Part shown: positions 9,218 through 16,382 of the stretch, in pieces
Layout: the number at the start of each line of letters is the position of its first letter
How positions within the stretch are numbered: position 1 is the first letter of the stretch
Assembly: GCA_020846005.1 (NCBI GenBank)
Contig: JADLEQ010000104.1
Location: 1 to 32,963, forward strand
DNA: 32,963 nt
Origin: Polyangiaceae bacterium
GTDB taxonomy: Bacteria > Myxococcota_A > Polyangia > Polyangiales > Polyangiaceae
Direction of reading: 5' to 3'
Position numbers and translations under genes: made by a program
The notes under the pieces: model-generated
Database searches by the model: none
The model's input: only the letters and a program-made list of their open reading frames with translations
What the model was told of the DNA's origin: nothing

Positions 9218-10237
9218 GTGCGAGCCCTCGCCATCGCTTACTACGTCCACGGCCACGGCCGGGGCCACGCGAGCCGCGCTCGCAGCGTGGTCCGCGTGCT
9301 CGAGCGCGACGAGCACCAGGTGTCGCTCGTCGTCTCGGGTGAGGCCGGCGACCTCGTCGGGGCGCCGACACAGATCGAGCGACGGCCGCTGCTCCGCCCC
9401 GGTCCCCTCGCGCTGCCGCGCCTCGCGGCGCGCGCGCGAGCGGAGGCCGAGTGGCTCACGCGCCGCGCGGTCGACCTCGTGGTGAGCGACGGCGACCAAC
9501 CCTCGATCTTGGCGGCGCGGGCGCGTGGCGTCCCCGCGTTGGCGATCGGGCACGATCTGGTCTTCACCGCGTGCCGACTCCCCGCGGGGATGTCGCGCGC
9601 GCGTGTGCTCTACCAGCAGCTCAACGCGGCCGTCCCGACCCGCGTGGCCGACGCGCGCGTCGCGGTCGGCTTCCTCCCGCTGGCGGCGCAACGCCCGCAC
9701 ACGACCGTCGCGCGCCCGGACGACGTCGAACTCCCGCCACCCACCGTGAGCGAGCACTTCGTCGCCTACTTCAGCGAGCTGGACGGCAGCGCGATCCTCG
9801 ACCTCGTGGCGCGGACGGGGAGCGCGGTCGAGTGGTTCGGCGGCGACCCGCGGCGTGCACCCGCCGGTGTGCTCGTACGCCCGTTCGAGCGCGAGACGTT
9901 CGTCGCGCGACTCGCGAGCGCGCGGGGCGTGATCGGCTCCGCGGGCAGCAACCTGCTCGCGGAGGCGATCCTGCTCGGGAAGCCGATCCTCTGCGCGCAC
10001 GATCCGCGCCACGTCGAGCAGACGCTGAACGCCGAGCTCGTGGCGCGGATGGGGGTCGGCCTGGCTGCGCCGGTGCGCCGGGTCGACGCCGCGCTCGTCC
10101 GTCGCTTCCTGGAGCTGGCGCGCACGGGAGCCCACGCGCGCATCGATCTCGCGGGATCGCTCCCGACGGTGTCGGCGGCCGCGCAGGCGTGGGTGGGCGC
10201 GCTCTCGGCGGGCCGGGCGATCAGCCACCGTCAGTGA
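9218..10237 (+). CDS. MurG/UGT-like glycosyltransferase (TIGR00661-type)
   Basis: 339 residues, GTG start. The N-terminus carries a YYVHGHGRGHASRARSV loop, the Gly/His-rich acceptor-side loop seen in MurG-like and MJ1255/VC2487-type glycosyltransferases. The C-terminal donor-binding half has IGSAGSNLLAEAILLGKPIL (about residues 238-257), corresponding to the G-x-x-x-x-x-E-A-x-x-x-G-K-P element of GT1/GT28 enzymes. It is probably a cytoplasmic or membrane-peripheral nucleotide-sugar transferase of unknown acceptor. The 3' end overlaps the convergent DUF4846 gene by 17 nt. Confidence 0.82.
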   Translation: MRALAIAYYVHGHGRGHASRARSVVRVLERDEHQVSLVVSGEAGDLVGAPTQIERRPLLRPGPLALPRLAARARAEAEWLTRRAVDLVVSDGDQPSILAARARGVPALAIGHDLVFTACRLPAGMSRARVLYQQLNAAVPTRVADARVAVGFLPLAAQRPHTTVARPDDVELPPPTVSEHFVAYFSELDGSAILDLVARTGSAVEWFGGDPRRAPAGVLVRPFERETFVARLASARGVIGSAGSNLLAEAILLGKPILCAHDPRHVEQTLNAELVARMGVGLAAPVRRVDAALVRRFLELARTGAHARIDLAGSLPTVSAAAQAWVGALSAGRAISHRQ

Positions 10238-11288
10238 CCACCTTGCGCTCGAGGCGCATCAGCCCGCTCCAGGGGAACTCCTCCGTGTAGGGCGTGAGCA
10301 GCGGGCGCTCGGGTCGCAGCGTGAACCACGCCGTCCCCCGCCCGGGGCGCAGCACGTGGACGCTCTGGGCCGGGTTCAGCGCCTGCCCGAGGAGCGCGAG
10401 GCGCTCGCCGTCGTCGCGCACGACGACATCGAGCACGAGCGTCGCGTGGAACGGCGACCTCGGGTGGAGGAAGAAATCGCCGGGGCGGAGGTCCTCTGGC
10501 GCCACCGGGGTGGCCTGCTGCGCGAGGGACGTCGAGTTGGCGAAGGCGAACACGCTGTCGAGGAATTCGCGGAAGCCCGTGTGGGAGTCTGCCCCGCCCT
10601 TCGCGCGCTTCTGCCATGTCACGGCGGCTCCGACCGCGATGATCCGCTCCCCCTTCGCCCAGCGCGCGAGCGGGAGCTCGGTGCCGTTCGCCGCGCGGTA
10701 GCTGATGGCGTCGCGCTCGCCCGCCGACCAGAGCCACTCTGCGTGGAGGCGGAGCACCACGTCCGAGCTCTGCTGCAGGTCCGCGCGCCCGACGTCCATC
10801 GCGACCACGGCGGCGAGGTAGTCGTCGTCCGCCGGGCGGACGGTCTCCCCCTTGTGCGAGGTGACGGGCGTCCCGGGGGAGGCGAGCGGCAGATCGCGGA
10901 GCCACGCAGCGAACGAGCCGGGCGCGACCTGGACGCGCGCCCGCCCGGGTGGCGTCGGGAAGCGCGCCGACAGGGTGTCCGCCACGGCCGGCGCCTTGAG
11001 GCCCGGGCTGGTCAGCCAGGCGTAGCGACTGGGATCGGGCGGCGCGGCGGCCGCCGGCTCGGCCGGAGGCGCAGGCGGGGCGTCGGGCGAGGCCGCCCCG
11101 CTCGCCCGCACGGCCGGCGCGGCGTCGACGGGCGCCGCGGCGCTCGGAGCGCCCGACATCGCCGCGGGCGGCGCCGCCTCGCTCGCGGCCGGGGGCGGCT
11201 CCGACCGCCGGGTGCACGCCGCCAGCCCCACCGCGACGAGCGCGAGCGCGGGCAGCAGTCGGCGCGTCTCCACTCTCACGGGCGCCAT
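10221..11288 (-). CDS. DUF4846-family lipoprotein
   Basis: 355 residues from ATG 11288. The signal peptide ends in a good lipobox, GLAAC (Cys25). A Pro/Ala/Ser-rich linker (about 26-90) leads to a globular domain that I recognise as DUF4846 from segments such as SHTGFREFLDSVFAFAN and LRPGDFFLHPRSPFHATLVL. The conserved His, Asp and Arg residues suggest an enzymatic domain, but no reaction is established to my knowledge. It is likely anchored in the periplasm or outer membrane. Its 3' end overlaps the neighbouring glycosyltransferase by 17 nt, and its start lies 63 nt from the divergent PAD gene. Confidence 0.8.
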   Translation of the reverse strand: MAPVRVETRRLLPALALVAVGLAACTRRSEPPPAASEAAPPAAMSGAPSAAAPVDAAPAVRASGAASPDAPPAPPAEPAAAAPPDPSRYAWLTSPGLKAPAVADTLSARFPTPPGRARVQVAPGSFAAWLRDLPLASPGTPVTSHKGETVRPADDDYLAAVVAMDVGRADLQQSSDVVLRLHAEWLWSAGERDAISYRAANGTELPLARWAKGERIIAVGAAVTWQKRAKGGADSHTGFREFLDSVFAFANSTSLAQQATPVAPEDLRPGDFFLHPRSPFHATLVLDVVVRDDGERLALLGQALNPAQSVHVLRPGRGTAWFTLRPERPLLTPYTEEFPWSGLMRLERKVVTDGG

Positions 11289-11339
11289 GCTACCCCGGGA
11301 CGCGGGACGGACGCGAATCGCCTGCGATGCGCGGAGTGA

Positions 11340-11351: not shown

Positions 11352-13202
11352 GTGCCTCCCGGCTCGCGCCTCACGTCCTCGCTCCGGAGCGCGGTCGTCG
11401 CCGTGGCCCTGCTCTGCGCCGCGGTGTCCGCCAGCTGCGGCGAAGCGGACGAGGGAGCGCCCGGCGACGCTGCGCCCGATCTGCGCGCGGACGTGGACCG
11501 CGACGGCCGGGTGGACACGCGCGGCGACTCGGACGAGGCGGGCGAAGCCGAGTGGTCCGCGACCCGCGGCGCGGTGGTGCTCGCCAACCTGGACGACGAC
11601 GAGCGCGCCTGCCCGCGCCTCGACGCCGCGGGCGCGCCCCTCTCCGATCTGGACCTCGCCGCGTGCCACGACGCCGCCGACTCGGTGGTGAACGGCCCCG
11701 ACGATCTCGCGGATCTCACGGCGATCGAGCTGCTCCCGTGGCCGGGCGCGCCGGCCGGCGTCGAGCTCAGCGTGACCTGGACCCGGGCGGACGTGCCCAC
11801 CGGCGCGCGGCTGTTCCTGCTCCAGGGCGGCGCGTGGACGCCGCTGCCGTCCGGGGCGCTGGTCCCACCCGAGGCAGCGCGGTCGGGAGCCTCCCTGCGG
11901 CTCGAGGCGACCGAGGTACCACGCGGGGTATCCGGTGAGGGCGCGTTCGTCGACGTCACGGTCGCGGCGGCCGCCGGCTCGCGCGCGTGGAGCGACACGG
12001 TCCGGCTTCGGGTCGCTCCCGTCGTGACGCAGCACGACCGGACGCCGGCGCGGCAGGTGCTCTCGAGTCGGGTCGAGGGGCTCGCCGGCTACCTCGACTT
12101 CCACGACGATCTCGTGCGCGGCGTGGCCGAGTCGGGCACGGGGGTGGAGGTGACGCCCTGGCCTCCCCCCGCGCTCGACCCCTGGATCCAGGACCTCTTC
12201 GAGCTCGGGTGGATGACGCGACCGATCGACGGCGGCACCCACGCGATCCTGGTAGCGCTGCGCTCGGCCAACGTCACACGGGCCGTCCTGCCGAGTCAGG
12301 TCACGCCGGAGTCGCCGCGGCGCGAGGCGGGGCGCATGGTGTTCGACTTTCGTGGCCCGGACACCGCCGTCGTCCAGGTGTTCGATCCGACGCACCCGGT
12401 CGCGCTCGACACCTTCAACTCGACGGGGAATTTCGATCGAGTCCCGCCCCACGAGGCTCCGGGGGGGAGCTACCCCCTGGGCCGAGCCGTCCGCGGCGCG
12501 ACGCCCACCGCCTACCCGGATCGGGCGTTCACGGCGCTGCTGGACGCTCAGGAGGAGGCTCCTCCGCTCGAGCTGGACACCTCGTGGCTCCGGGTGGGCC
12601 ACGTCGACGAGATGCTCGCCTTCGTCCCCGCCGCCTCGGCCCGGGGCTGGGCGGTGCTGATCGCGTCTCCGCGCCGCGCGCGCGCGGTGTTCGAGGAGCT
12701 CGCGGGGCGCGGGCTCGGAGAGACGCCGGTGTTCGCCGGCAAGCTGGCCGGGGCGAGCGGGGTCACGCCGAGCGCCGAGACGACCGTCGCGGCCGTGCTC
12801 GCCGACGAGGACGTGATGGCGGCGAGCCTGCGCGCCGCCATCGAGCTCGACGAGATCGCGTCGCGCCTGACGGCGGAGCTGGGCCTCGCGCCCAGCGAGC
12901 TGGTGGAGGCCCCGGTGCTGTTCGCGGAGTCGCTCGGCCGCGCGGTCGCGTACACCCCGTCGCTCGTGAACGGGGTGTCGCTGCCGCCAGCGCACCTCCT
13001 CGTCCCCCGCGCGCATGGGCCACGGGTCGACGGGGTCGACGTGCTCGAGGCCAGCCTCGCGGACGGCGTCGCCGCGCTCGGCCTCACGCTCGTCCCGGTG
13101 GAGGACTGGGAGCTCTTCCACGTCAACGGGGGCGAGGTGCACTGCGCGACCAACCTACTCCGCGGGCCGGGCACCGCGCCGTGGTGGGGAGGCCCTCCGT
13201 GA
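11352..13202 (+). CDS. Protein-arginine deiminase (PAD) family lipoprotein
   Basis: 616 residues from GTG 11352. A signal peptide with SASC at Cys29 suggests a lipoprotein. Residues about 45-220 resemble PAD_M: an acidic DVDRDGRVD (47-55), Trp68, then VVLANLDDDE (75-84), which parallels the calcium-binding start of PAD_M in animal enzymes. Residues about 225-616 match PAD_C. The catalytic set of human PAD4 (Asp350, His471, Asp473, Cys645) is present as Asp281 (DPWIQD), His417 and Asp419 (GHVDEM), and Cys598 (GEVHCATN). The family converts peptidyl-arginine to citrulline, usually with calcium. No PAD_N domain is evident. This is the vertebrate-type family, not the Porphyromonas PPAD type. It overlaps the next gene by 4 nt (GTGA), indicating coupled translation. 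Confidence 0.9.
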   Translation: MPPGSRLTSSLRSAVVAVALLCAAVSASCGEADEGAPGDAAPDLRADVDRDGRVDTRGDSDEAGEAEWSATRGAVVLANLDDDERACPRLDAAGAPLSDLDLAACHDAADSVVNGPDDLADLTAIELLPWPGAPAGVELSVTWTRADVPTGARLFLLQGGAWTPLPSGALVPPEAARSGASLRLEATEVPRGVSGEGAFVDVTVAAAAGSRAWSDTVRLRVAPVVTQHDRTPARQVLSSRVEGLAGYLDFHDDLVRGVAESGTGVEVTPWPPPALDPWIQDLFELGWMTRPIDGGTHAILVALRSANVTRAVLPSQVTPESPRREAGRMVFDFRGPDTAVVQVFDPTHPVALDTFNSTGNFDRVPPHEAPGGSYPLGRAVRGATPTAYPDRAFTALLDAQEEAPPLELDTSWLRVGHVDEMLAFVPAASARGWAVLIASPRRARAVFEELAGRGLGETPVFAGKLAGASGVTPSAETTVAAVLADEDVMAASLRAAIELDEIASRLTAELGLAPSELVEAPVLFAESLGRAVAYTPSLVNGVSLPPAHLLVPRAHGPRVDGVDVLEASLADGVAALGLTLVPVEDWELFHVNGGEVHCATNLLRGPGTAPWWGGPP

Positions 13203-14083
13203 GGCGCGTGCTCGCGCAGCTCGCGCTCGCCGCGCTCGCCGTCGCGCTGCCCGGGATCGCGCGCGGGGACGCCGGCCGCCCCGTACCGGGCGCCGTCGCG
13301 ACGGGCCCCGCGCAGGCCCGCCCCGCGCCGGGCTCCCCGCTGCTCGGGGCGCTCGCGGTGCCTCCGGGCGACCGAGCGCGGCTCGCGGCCGCGATCGCGC
13401 GCGAACGCGCGCTGAACCCCGCGGCGTTCGCGGCGCTCCGCGCGCTCGAGCGCTCGCTCGGCTCGATACCCGCCGGGCGAGACGGTCGCCTCGACGTACG
13501 CGCGGCGCTCCGGCCGCTCGGGCACGCTGCCGTGCTCCCCGTGCTCGAGCGCCTCGCGCTCGCCGGCCCCGAGGGCGAGGCGCTCGACGATCCCCGCCGG
13601 GAGGCGCTCGCGACCGCGCTGCTCGAGGCGGTCGGCGCGCTCCGCGACGAGCGCGCCCGGCCCGTGCTGGCAGCGGTCGTCGCGCGCGCGGGCGGGAGGC
13701 TCGAGGAGGTCCGCGCCGCCGCCGGCGGGCTCGCACGCCTCGGCGCAGACACCGACCTGGAGCTCGTCGCCCGGCTCGCGCGCTCCGGCGGCGCGCGCGG
13801 CCGAGCGGGCGTGGAGGCGCTCGGGGCGCTCCGGCGACCCGCGACGATCCGGACGCTCGAGGCGCTGCTCGCCGAGGCTGGCAGCGAAGACGACGCTCGG
13901 GCGGTCGTCCGCGCCGCGGGGGACGCGGGGAACGCCTGGGCGTGGCTCACGCCGGCGCTGGCGGGCTCTGGCGAGGGGGGTCGAACGCGCGCGGCCGCTC
14001 GCGCGCTGGTGGAGCGGGCCGCGCGGACGTGGCCCGGGCTGGCCCGTGAGGCCGCCAAGTCGGCTCGGGTGATCGACGGGTGA
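13199..14083 (+). CDS. Exported HEAT-like helical-repeat protein
   Basis: 294 residues from GTG 13199, whose GTGA overlaps the PAD stop. GGGGAGG at 13186-13192, 6 nt upstream, gives a strong ribosome site inside the PAD gene. Residues 1-23 form a signal peptide (VRRVLAQLALAALAVALPG, then A-R-G). The mature part is almost entirely helical, Ala/Arg/Leu-rich, with repeated pairs of about 30-40 residues (e.g. LPVLERLALAG, RPVLAAVVARAGG, ELVARLARSG), which look like HEAT or armadillo-type repeats. Such proteins act as scaffolds. Coupling to PAD suggests a periplasmic partner or substrate holder for the deiminase, by inference. The composition is biased, so repeat assignment is moderate. Confidence 0.75.
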   Translation: MRRVLAQLALAALAVALPGIARGDAGRPVPGAVATGPAQARPAPGSPLLGALAVPPGDRARLAAAIARERALNPAAFAALRALERSLGSIPAGRDGRLDVRAALRPLGHAAVLPVLERLALAGPEGEALDDPRREALATALLEAVGALRDERARPVLAAVVARAGGRLEEVRAAAGGLARLGADTDLELVARLARSGGARGRAGVEALGALRRPATIRTLEALLAEAGSEDDARAVVRAAGDAGNAWAWLTPALAGSGEGGRTRAAARALVERAARTWPGLAREAAKSARVIDG

Positions 14084-14246: not shown

Positions 14247-16382
14247 ATGCTCGCGAACCGCTGGCTCCTTCGTTCCTTCACCTGCCTGTCGCTGCTCGCC
14301 ATCGGTTGCGGCGGGGATGACGAATCCGAGAAGAAGAACACCGCGCCGAGCATCGACCCGCCGGGCGACGGGCCGGCGGGCGGAGTGCACCTCCTGGCGG
14401 GGGACTGCGACTCCCTCACCCCGACGCAGTGCGGGTTCCCTTTCCCATCGAACGTCTACCTGGTCGACGACACGACGGGCCTCGCGACCTCGGGCAAGCA
14501 GGTGATGTTCGGGGCCGCGACGCTCCCAAAGAACCTCGGCCTCTACCCGGTGGACCCGACGATCCTCTCCTACAAGGACGGCTTCTCGACGGGGTCCGGG
14601 CCGCAGACGCACATGCCGGGCGCGACCTTCGAGGGCGTCGCGCGGCCGACGTCGATCGAGCGCTCGCTCGAGGACACCTCGCCGTCGATCCTGATCGAGG
14701 CGGACACGGGCCGGCGCGTGCCCCACTGGGTCGACATCGATCAGTCCACGCCGAACGACGGCCTCGAGGACCGCGACGACGAGCGCGCGATCCAGATCCG
14801 CCCCGCGGAGCGCCTGAAGGACGCCACGCGGTACATCGTCGCCTTCCGCAACATCCAGCACCGGGACGGCCACGTGATCGAGCCCGTGCAGGCGTTCCGC
14901 GAGCTCCGCGACGAGCTCAAGACGGAGGACTACGGCGTGAAGCGCCGGCGCGCGCTCTACGCCGACATCTTCGGCAAGCTGGAGACCGCCGGGTATCCCC
15001 GCGCGGACCTGCAGGTCGCCTGGGACTTCACCACCGCCACCAAGGAGAACACCACCCGTCGCATGGTCGCGCTCCGGGATCGCGCGCTCGAGGCGGTCGG
15101 CGCCGCCGGGCCCTCGTTCGTCGTGACCGAGGTCGAGGAGAGCCCCGGCAACGGCATCTTGCGGCGCATCCACGTGAAGATGACGGTGCCGATGTTCCTC
15201 AACTTCTACGCCAAGGGGTACAAGGAGTCGGAGTGGGAGACCCAGGGCGGCTACAACCGCCTGATGCTCGACGAGCAGGGCCTGCCGGAGCAGAACGGCA
15301 CGATGGAGCAGGACGTGCTCATCATCGTGCCCGAGGGCGTGACGAGCGGGACGAAGCACGGGCTGCTGCAGAACGGCCACGGGCTCTTCGGCAGCCGGTT
15401 CGAGGGGCAGGGCGGCTACCTCGCGAGGATGGCGGCGGACTACGGCTGGATCGCGTTCAGCACGAACCTCTTCGGCTTCGCCGAGGACGATGTCGGCCTC
15501 GCGATCACCGCGCTCGGCGCGCGCCCCCTGCTCTTCAATTCCTTCTTCGATCGCCAGCAGCAGGGCCAGGTGAACCAGCTCCTCGCGATGCGCATGATGA
15601 TGGGGCGCATCGCGACGGACGGCATCAAGGATCCCAACGATCCGAGCGCCTACCTGCTCGATCCTTCGTGGATCGACCCGAGCGTGCGGGCGTATCGCGG
15701 CGACAGCCAGGGCGGCATCATGGGGACGACGTACTGCGCCGTCTCGACGGACGTGACCCGCTGCCTCGTGGGCGAGCCGGGCATGCCGTACAGCCTCCTG
15801 CTGAATCGCAGCAAGGACTGGCCGGCGTACGATGTCGTCCTCCGTGCCAGCTACAACACCGGCCTGAACAACCAGTTCATGGTCGCGTTGATCCAGCAGG
15901 GCTGGGACGCCTCGGAGCCGGTCGGCTACGCGCCGTACATGACGACGGATCTGCTCCCGAACACGCCGCCGCACTACCTGCTCATCCACCCGGCGATCGG
16001 GGATCACCAGGTGGTCACGTGGGCAGCGCACATCATCGCGCGGTCGGTCGGCGCGGTGAACCTGGCGAGCCCCGCCGGCGAGGTGCACCGCACGGTGCCG
16101 TTCCTCGAGCAGGCGACGGCCCCCGTGACGAACCGCTCGGCCATGGTGGAGTGGGAGTTCGGCCTCGCGCCGGAGCCGCTCGAGAACCTCCCGCCGAAGG
16201 ACGGCTGCGATCCGCACGATCGCGTCCGTGTGCTCGACCCGGCTTACGAGCAGCAGGACCACTTCTTCCGCACCGGCGAGATCAAGTGGACCTGCGACGG
16301 CCTCTGCAACTGCGACAGCGCCAACGAAGAGGCTGGCTGCGAGCGGACGCGCGACGCGGGCGACACGGTCTGCAAGCCGTGA
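14247..16382 (+). CDS. Large lipoprotein with alpha/beta-hydrolase features
   Basis: 711 residues from ATG 14247 with AAAGG upstream. The signal peptide ends in LLAIGC (Cys about 22). Residues about 40-300 form an N-terminal domain of unknown type. From about 365 the chain looks like an alpha/beta hydrolase: an oxyanion-type GHGLFGS element, a nucleophile elbow GDSQGG with Ser487, and a late-strand HPAIGDHQV motif with Asp586 as candidate acid. The catalytic His is not certain. The C-terminal 40 residues are Cys-rich (CDGLCNCDS), so a disulfide-stabilised tail is likely. It is probably an outer-membrane or exported esterase or peptidase-like enzyme; the substrate is unknown. It ends in a strong hairpin shared with the convergent HAD gene. 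Confidence 0.78.
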   Translation: MLANRWLLRSFTCLSLLAIGCGGDDESEKKNTAPSIDPPGDGPAGGVHLLAGDCDSLTPTQCGFPFPSNVYLVDDTTGLATSGKQVMFGAATLPKNLGLYPVDPTILSYKDGFSTGSGPQTHMPGATFEGVARPTSIERSLEDTSPSILIEADTGRRVPHWVDIDQSTPNDGLEDRDDERAIQIRPAERLKDATRYIVAFRNIQHRDGHVIEPVQAFRELRDELKTEDYGVKRRRALYADIFGKLETAGYPRADLQVAWDFTTATKENTTRRMVALRDRALEAVGAAGPSFVVTEVEESPGNGILRRIHVKMTVPMFLNFYAKGYKESEWETQGGYNRLMLDEQGLPEQNGTMEQDVLIIVPEGVTSGTKHGLLQNGHGLFGSRFEGQGGYLARMAADYGWIAFSTNLFGFAEDDVGLAITALGARPLLFNSFFDRQQQGQVNQLLAMRMMMGRIATDGIKDPNDPSAYLLDPSWIDPSVRAYRGDSQGGIMGTTYCAVSTDVTRCLVGEPGMPYSLLLNRSKDWPAYDVVLRASYNTGLNNQFMVALIQQGWDASEPVGYAPYMTTDLLPNTPPHYLLIHPAIGDHQVVTWAAHIIARSVGAVNLASPAGEVHRTVPFLEQATAPVTNRSAMVEWEFGLAPEPLENLPPKDGCDPHDRVRVLDPAYEQQDHFFRTGEIKWTCDGLCNCDSANEEAGCERTRDAGDTVCKP

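Follow-up and report, generated by a model that had tools for sequence, protein, structure and literature searches.

A predicted lipoprotein protein-arginine deiminase of Myxococcota and an overlapping gene for an exported HEAT-repeat protein

Work on citrullination has been almost wholly concerned with vertebrates, and the role of protein-arginine deiminases (PADs) in bacteria, from which the family came, has been little addressed. A two-domain form of PADI was described from actinobacteria, fungi and proteobacteria in 2021 (Cummings et al., PMC8826395); the same paper reports PADs from 69 species of Proteobacteria, broadly defined. The residue equivalent to D388 of PAD4 is reported as glycine in the actinobacterial and fungal two-domain enzymes, and the PPAD of Porphyromonas gingivalis as an agmatine-deiminase type of extended form that lacks PAD_M and is phyletically separate (PMC8826395). 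The main text of PMC8826395 uses none of the words signal peptide, lipoprotein, operon and HEAT. Within the open literature, taken as excluding subscription papers and preprints, we found no paper that joins PAD, HEAT repeats and an operon, and none on a protein-arginine deiminase in myxobacteria. The two-domain PAD type is already known; of the overlapping HEAT-repeat partner described below, no report was found.

The window, that is, the whole 32,963-nt stretch of Polyangiaceae DNA analysed, contains an open reading frame that starts with GTG and encodes a 616-aa product (Table 1). An initial annotation had proposed that this product is a vertebrate-type PAD made as a lipoprotein, and the reading frame and the four catalytic residues that it named are present in the sequence. 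The Pfam profile PF03068 (PAD) matched with E = 2.6e-73 and 247.7 bits (cut-off 25), so that the catalytic-domain match on which the proposal hinged was obtained; NCBIfam gave no match for the protein. A phmmer single-sequence search of the PDB returned human PAD3 at E = 3e-43, with human PAD3, PAD1, PAD4 and PAD2 spanning 3e-43 to 1e-34. When a profile of 27 Myxococcota PADs was compared with the PDB, its alignment to human PAD4 began where the middle domain begins and ran to the C-terminus (E = 1e-97). Membership of the PAD family is near certain.

Table 1. Features of the deiminase locus (positions in the window)
Feature	Position	Strand	Basis or remark
DUF4846 protein, lipoprotein-like N-terminus	10236-11291	-	transcribed away from PAD gene; absent from genus-mate
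Two-domain protein-arginine deiminase gene	11352-13202	+	PF03068, phmmer, model superposition
Predicted lipoprotein signal peptide, residues 1-28	11352-11435	+	PS51257-type lipobox VSAS-C
Cys29, predicted lipidation site	11436-11438	+	VSASC fits PROSITE PS51257
Divergent PAD_M-like middle domain	11478-11987	+	residues 43-212; profile alignment to PAD4 middle domain, residue mapping
PAD catalytic domain	11988-13187	+	residues 213-612; PF03068; holds D281, H417, D419, C598
GGAGG ribosome-binding sequence	13188-13192	+	within PAD 3' end, 6 nt 5' of next start
Exported HEAT-repeat protein gene	13199-14083	+	294 aa; family A3; start overlaps PAD stop as GTGA
Lipoprotein-like 711-aa protein	14247-16379	+	Pfam: no family above cut-off

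The middle domain was defined indirectly. Pfam PAD_M had no match in the protein at E<=1, as is also the case for the two-domain PADs of Cummings et al. 2021 (PMC8826395). The profile of the relatives nevertheless spans the PAD4 middle domain, the structural superposition begins at about PAD4 residue 110, and the calcium ligands of this region are kept; on these three grounds the PAD_M-like acidic calcium region suggested initially was accepted. The PAD_N domain, already thought to be missing, is absent: ahead of the middle domain there are only 42 residues, comprising the signal and a short linker, which leaves no room for it, and the alignments start at about PAD4 110-115. A divergent PAD_M followed by PAD_C, without PAD_N, is the architecture that defines a two-domain PADI. 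An AlphaFold model built from 18 sequences had a pLDDT of 83.7 and a pTM of 0.86, and the solved structures that fit it best were PAD4-histone peptide complexes (Z = 46.3, rmsd 2.1 A). In the superposition on PAD4, for which Foldseek was also used, 508 residues were aligned, spanning PAD4 112-663. A predicted structure of the PAD4 fold, which had been proposed as a check on the identification, was thus recovered.

Residues D281, H417, D419 and C598 align with D350, H471, D473 and C645 of PAD4, the PAD4 numbering having been checked against H471, C645 and D350, and all four are conserved in 69/69 Myxococcota relatives of the same clade (clade 1). Neither superposition nor alignment to PAD4 contradicts the idea that they form one site. 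The counterparts of the PAD4 substrate-pocket residues W347 and V469 are W278 and V415. In the middle domain the calcium ligands are retained as N79, D81, D83, D107, D110, D118 and D121, where D107 and D110 were equated with PAD4 D165 and D168 from ungapped spacing, and the ligands of the EF-like loop as D47, D49, D51 and D55. At calcium site 1, Q280, E284 and D362 take the places of PAD4 Q349, E353 and E411, respectively, and site 2 is broken, with PAD4 E351 replaced by L282 and D369 by R304; the assignment of PAD4 residues to these sites follows the PAD4 and PAD2 structures. The calcium-switch Asp (PAD2 D389, PAD4 D388) is retained as D337 and is Asp in 62/69 clade-1 Myxococcota PADs. The substrate arginines R372/R374 of PAD4 fall in a stretch that bears insertions, where the alignment gives no confident counterpart. 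Deiminase activity is likely. Since the calcium ligands are mostly kept and site 2 is changed, calcium control is likely and may be unlike that of the human enzymes; the altered site 2 ligands, together with the lack of confidently placed R372/R374 counterparts, suggest that the choice of substrate may also differ.

The lipobox-like Cys noted in the initial annotation proved to be a conserved feature. The sequence VSASC29 satisfies the PROSITE rule PS51257, as do 56/69 related Myxococcota PADs, compared with 2.1 expected from shuffled N-termini, and several of the remaining 13 have a hydrophobic stretch that ends in Cys and misses the strict rule. These counts use the PROSITE rule only, a simple SPI/LIPO classifier having been dropped because it mislabelled several lipoproteins as SPI. 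Some Myxococcota PADs have long low-complexity stalks after the lipobox. Among actinobacterial PADs the rule was satisfied by three of 23 rows, all three of them Nocardia loci, and most of the others, including most from Streptomyces, carry an ordinary Sec signal. A second clade of Myxococcota PADs, described below, gave 11/23 against 5.8 expected, a count that is uninformative because the start of the domain is uncertain there. With lipobox or Sec signals in most relatives, export appears to be general among these bacterial PADs rather than a quirk of one genome, and export of the window PAD as a lipoprotein is very likely.

The genome has one PAD, and PADs were found in 94/379 sampled Myxococcota genomes, about a quarter, and in 55/108 genomes of its own family. 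The window PAD is divergent, with a best identity of 44% to any other PAD and a long branch. In a first tree it stood beside long forms from Nonomuraea and Actinomadura; once the long-branched rows were removed it instead branched at the base of the Myxococcota PADs, so the first placement is attributed to long-branch attraction. In the reduced tree its sister group consists of 50 Myxococcota PADs (SH-aLRT 83), and the actinobacterial PADs come next (SH-aLRT 96). The grouping of the window PAD with Myxococcota and actinobacterial PADs had SH-aLRT values of 96-99; human PAD4 did not group with it, and the placement of PAD4 itself lacks support. The trees comprised Myxococcota and actinobacterial PADs and human PAD4, and so the comparison with bacterial and animal PADs foreseen initially was obtained for these groups, leaving aside cyanobacterial (e.g. 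Rippkaea orientalis PCC 8801) and fungal sequences. Four PADs of actinomycete plasmids were found in a plasmid collection, none nearer to the window PAD. The label vertebrate-type is not supported by these results: given the tree position, the architecture without PAD_N and the loss of site 2, the protein is better described as being of the bacterial two-domain type.

Several PADs in the sample were unusual in themselves. Those of Actinomadura and Nonomuraea (L055, L056, L057, L058) are long: their open frames span 920-1040 aa, the catalytic domain bears large insertions, and a signal peptide is not evident. A Myxococcota subgroup (L026, L027, L028, L141) has animal-like stretches (GPDFGYV in L026; RxAPW), despite which it has Arg at the position of PAD4 D369. 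In Streptomyces tuirus and S. viridochromogenes (L048, L049) the PAD genes are apparently broken or rearranged, the match being frame-split or widely gapped.

The initial annotation missed what is most informative about the locus, namely the HEAT-repeat gene whose start overlaps the PAD stop. A GGAG sequence lies at a roughly equivalent place in the 3' ends of most relatives' PAD genes. The HEAT gene is directly downstream of PAD in 64 of the 67 clade-1 loci with room for it and directly upstream in two, giving adjacency in 66/67. Among 44 distinct PAD/HEAT junctions, 36 read ATGA and four GTGA, so that 40/44 overlap. The 294-aa product has a Sec-type signal peptide. Alone it gave no Pfam HEAT match, and Pfam HEAT_2 matched 28/30 aligned members of its family; the family profile found alpha-Rep HEAT proteins in the PDB, with E down to 1e-50. 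The protein was modelled as a helical solenoid, for which Foldseek returned no PDB match under E 0.001. At E<1e-20 the family was present in 56/94 PAD-bearing and 0/285 PAD-less Myxococcota genomes (Fisher p 6e-42, a value that ignores relatedness and compares two genome lists matched by hand). No HEAT neighbour was seen at the 23 actinobacterial PAD rows examined, and thus a PAD does not need such a partner everywhere. Proteins or peptides are the usual ligands of HEAT repeats, and this favours an adaptor, inhibitor or substrate role for this protein. Taken on gene order and co-occurrence, PAD and the HEAT protein probably form a functional unit.

All other Myxococcota PADs make up a divergent second clade (loci L111-L129; support 100). 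At 18/20 of its loci the gene after PAD encodes a different exported or lipidated HEAT-repeat protein, a count made with a profile built from these very loci, some of which are near relatives. HEAT repeats were found in 13/13 members of this second partner family, which is distantly similar to the first (hhalign probability 93%). The persistence of a HEAT-repeat neighbour in each of two old PAD clades speaks for a functional link between the two proteins. Separately, a HEAT protein of the second-clade type (about E 1e-60) occurs without any PF03068 match in ten genomes of one genus in family f38 (G325, G314, G238, G171, G109, G113, G104, G195, G225, G064), where a more divergent pentein may perhaps lie beside it.

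The other genome of the genus, which is 90% complete, has no PAD, no HEAT gene and no counterpart of the upstream DUF4846 gene. What it does retain is a counterpart of the 14247 gene (65% identity) together with the gene that follows; since this conserved flank is present, the PAD block is not at that place in the genus-mate. Within the genus the block was acquired, lost or relocated. Neither the promoter scan nor the terminator scan of the PAD locus gave a hit. The 711-aa protein encoded downstream has a paralogue of 31% identity at G000:C19, which contains one in-frame TGA.

The reading that we consider likely is a two-gene operon for extracytoplasmic citrullination. The first gene would encode a calcium-dependent two-domain PAD that leaves the cytoplasm through Sec, receives a lipid at Cys29 and stays anchored to a membrane outside it, with a predicted final location at the inner membrane, the outer membrane or the surface. 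The second, translationally coupled to it, would encode the exported HEAT-repeat protein. The enzyme would convert arginine to citrulline in proteins or peptides of the periplasm or cell surface, where calcium could reach the level that such enzymes need. The HEAT protein would most likely bind the PAD, or present or restrain its substrates. A broader version, in which lipid-anchored PAD and co-translated HEAT protein constitute one extracytoplasmic citrullination module of Myxococcota, kept as a unit by two anciently diverged clades, is favoured somewhat over its negation.

Two alternatives, each of them unlikely, keep the enzyme active and assign the pair another purpose. In the first, the pair is aimed at neighbours: the PAD, as a lipoprotein of the surface or of outer-membrane vesicles, would act on prey or competitors by citrullinating their arginine-rich proteins or peptides, and the HEAT protein would shield the producer or aid delivery of the enzyme. 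Myxococcota include predatory species, and the conserved exported-lipoprotein signal and the stalks behind some lipoboxes, as in surface lipoproteins, would suit such a use. However, the neighbourhoods compared contained no recurrent secretion system or linked effector gene beside the pair, and PAD, present in just a quarter of sampled Myxococcota, shows no particular tie to predators. Predation, raised at the outset as a role for the PAD, is retained as a rival only and is not supported by these genomic comparisons. In the second, the HEAT protein would be the main substrate of the PAD or an arginine-bearing inhibitor of it, and citrullination a calcium-gated switch in the envelope. This would account for the strict coupling of the genes and for the near-invariant arginines of the HEAT family, among them R95, R213 and R264 of the window protein, although conserved arginines are commonplace in helical repeat proteins. 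It is very improbable that the PAD relative is catalytically dead or acts on free arginine without citrullinating protein, as its divergent sequence, the loss of calcium site 2 and the use of free guanidino compounds by other penteins (PMC8826395) might suggest, because the four catalytic residues, W278, V415 and the middle-domain calcium ligands are all kept in a full two-domain PAD architecture that free-arginine enzymes lack.

Returning to the two-gene operon, the conserved coupled partner and the predicted location make the role of a bacterial PAD testable in a culturable myxobacterium, and a natural protein that binds or regulates PAD would be useful to research on PAD control in disease. 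We know of no other bacterial PAD with a near-obligate protein partner, and if the module reading is true this would be the first.

Compared with known enzymes, the window PAD shares with Porphyromonas gingivalis PPAD the pentein fold and, as predicted, the character of an exported bacterial citrullinating enzyme; as the literature describes it, PPAD is set apart by its lack of PAD_M and its separate lineage. With vertebrate PAD1-4 and the three-domain PADI of cyanobacteria it has in common the middle and catalytic fold, the catalytic residues and the middle-domain calcium ligands, but it lacks PAD_N, has a broken site 2, is predicted to be exported and did not group with human PAD4 in the trees. 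The closest likeness is to the two-domain PADI, in the PAD_M-like and PAD_C domains without PAD_N, the retained catalytic residues, the changed site 2 and the grouping with actinobacterial enzymes. It differs from these in keeping the D388 equivalent as Asp (D337) rather than glycine, in its lipoprotein signal and in its overlapping HEAT gene.
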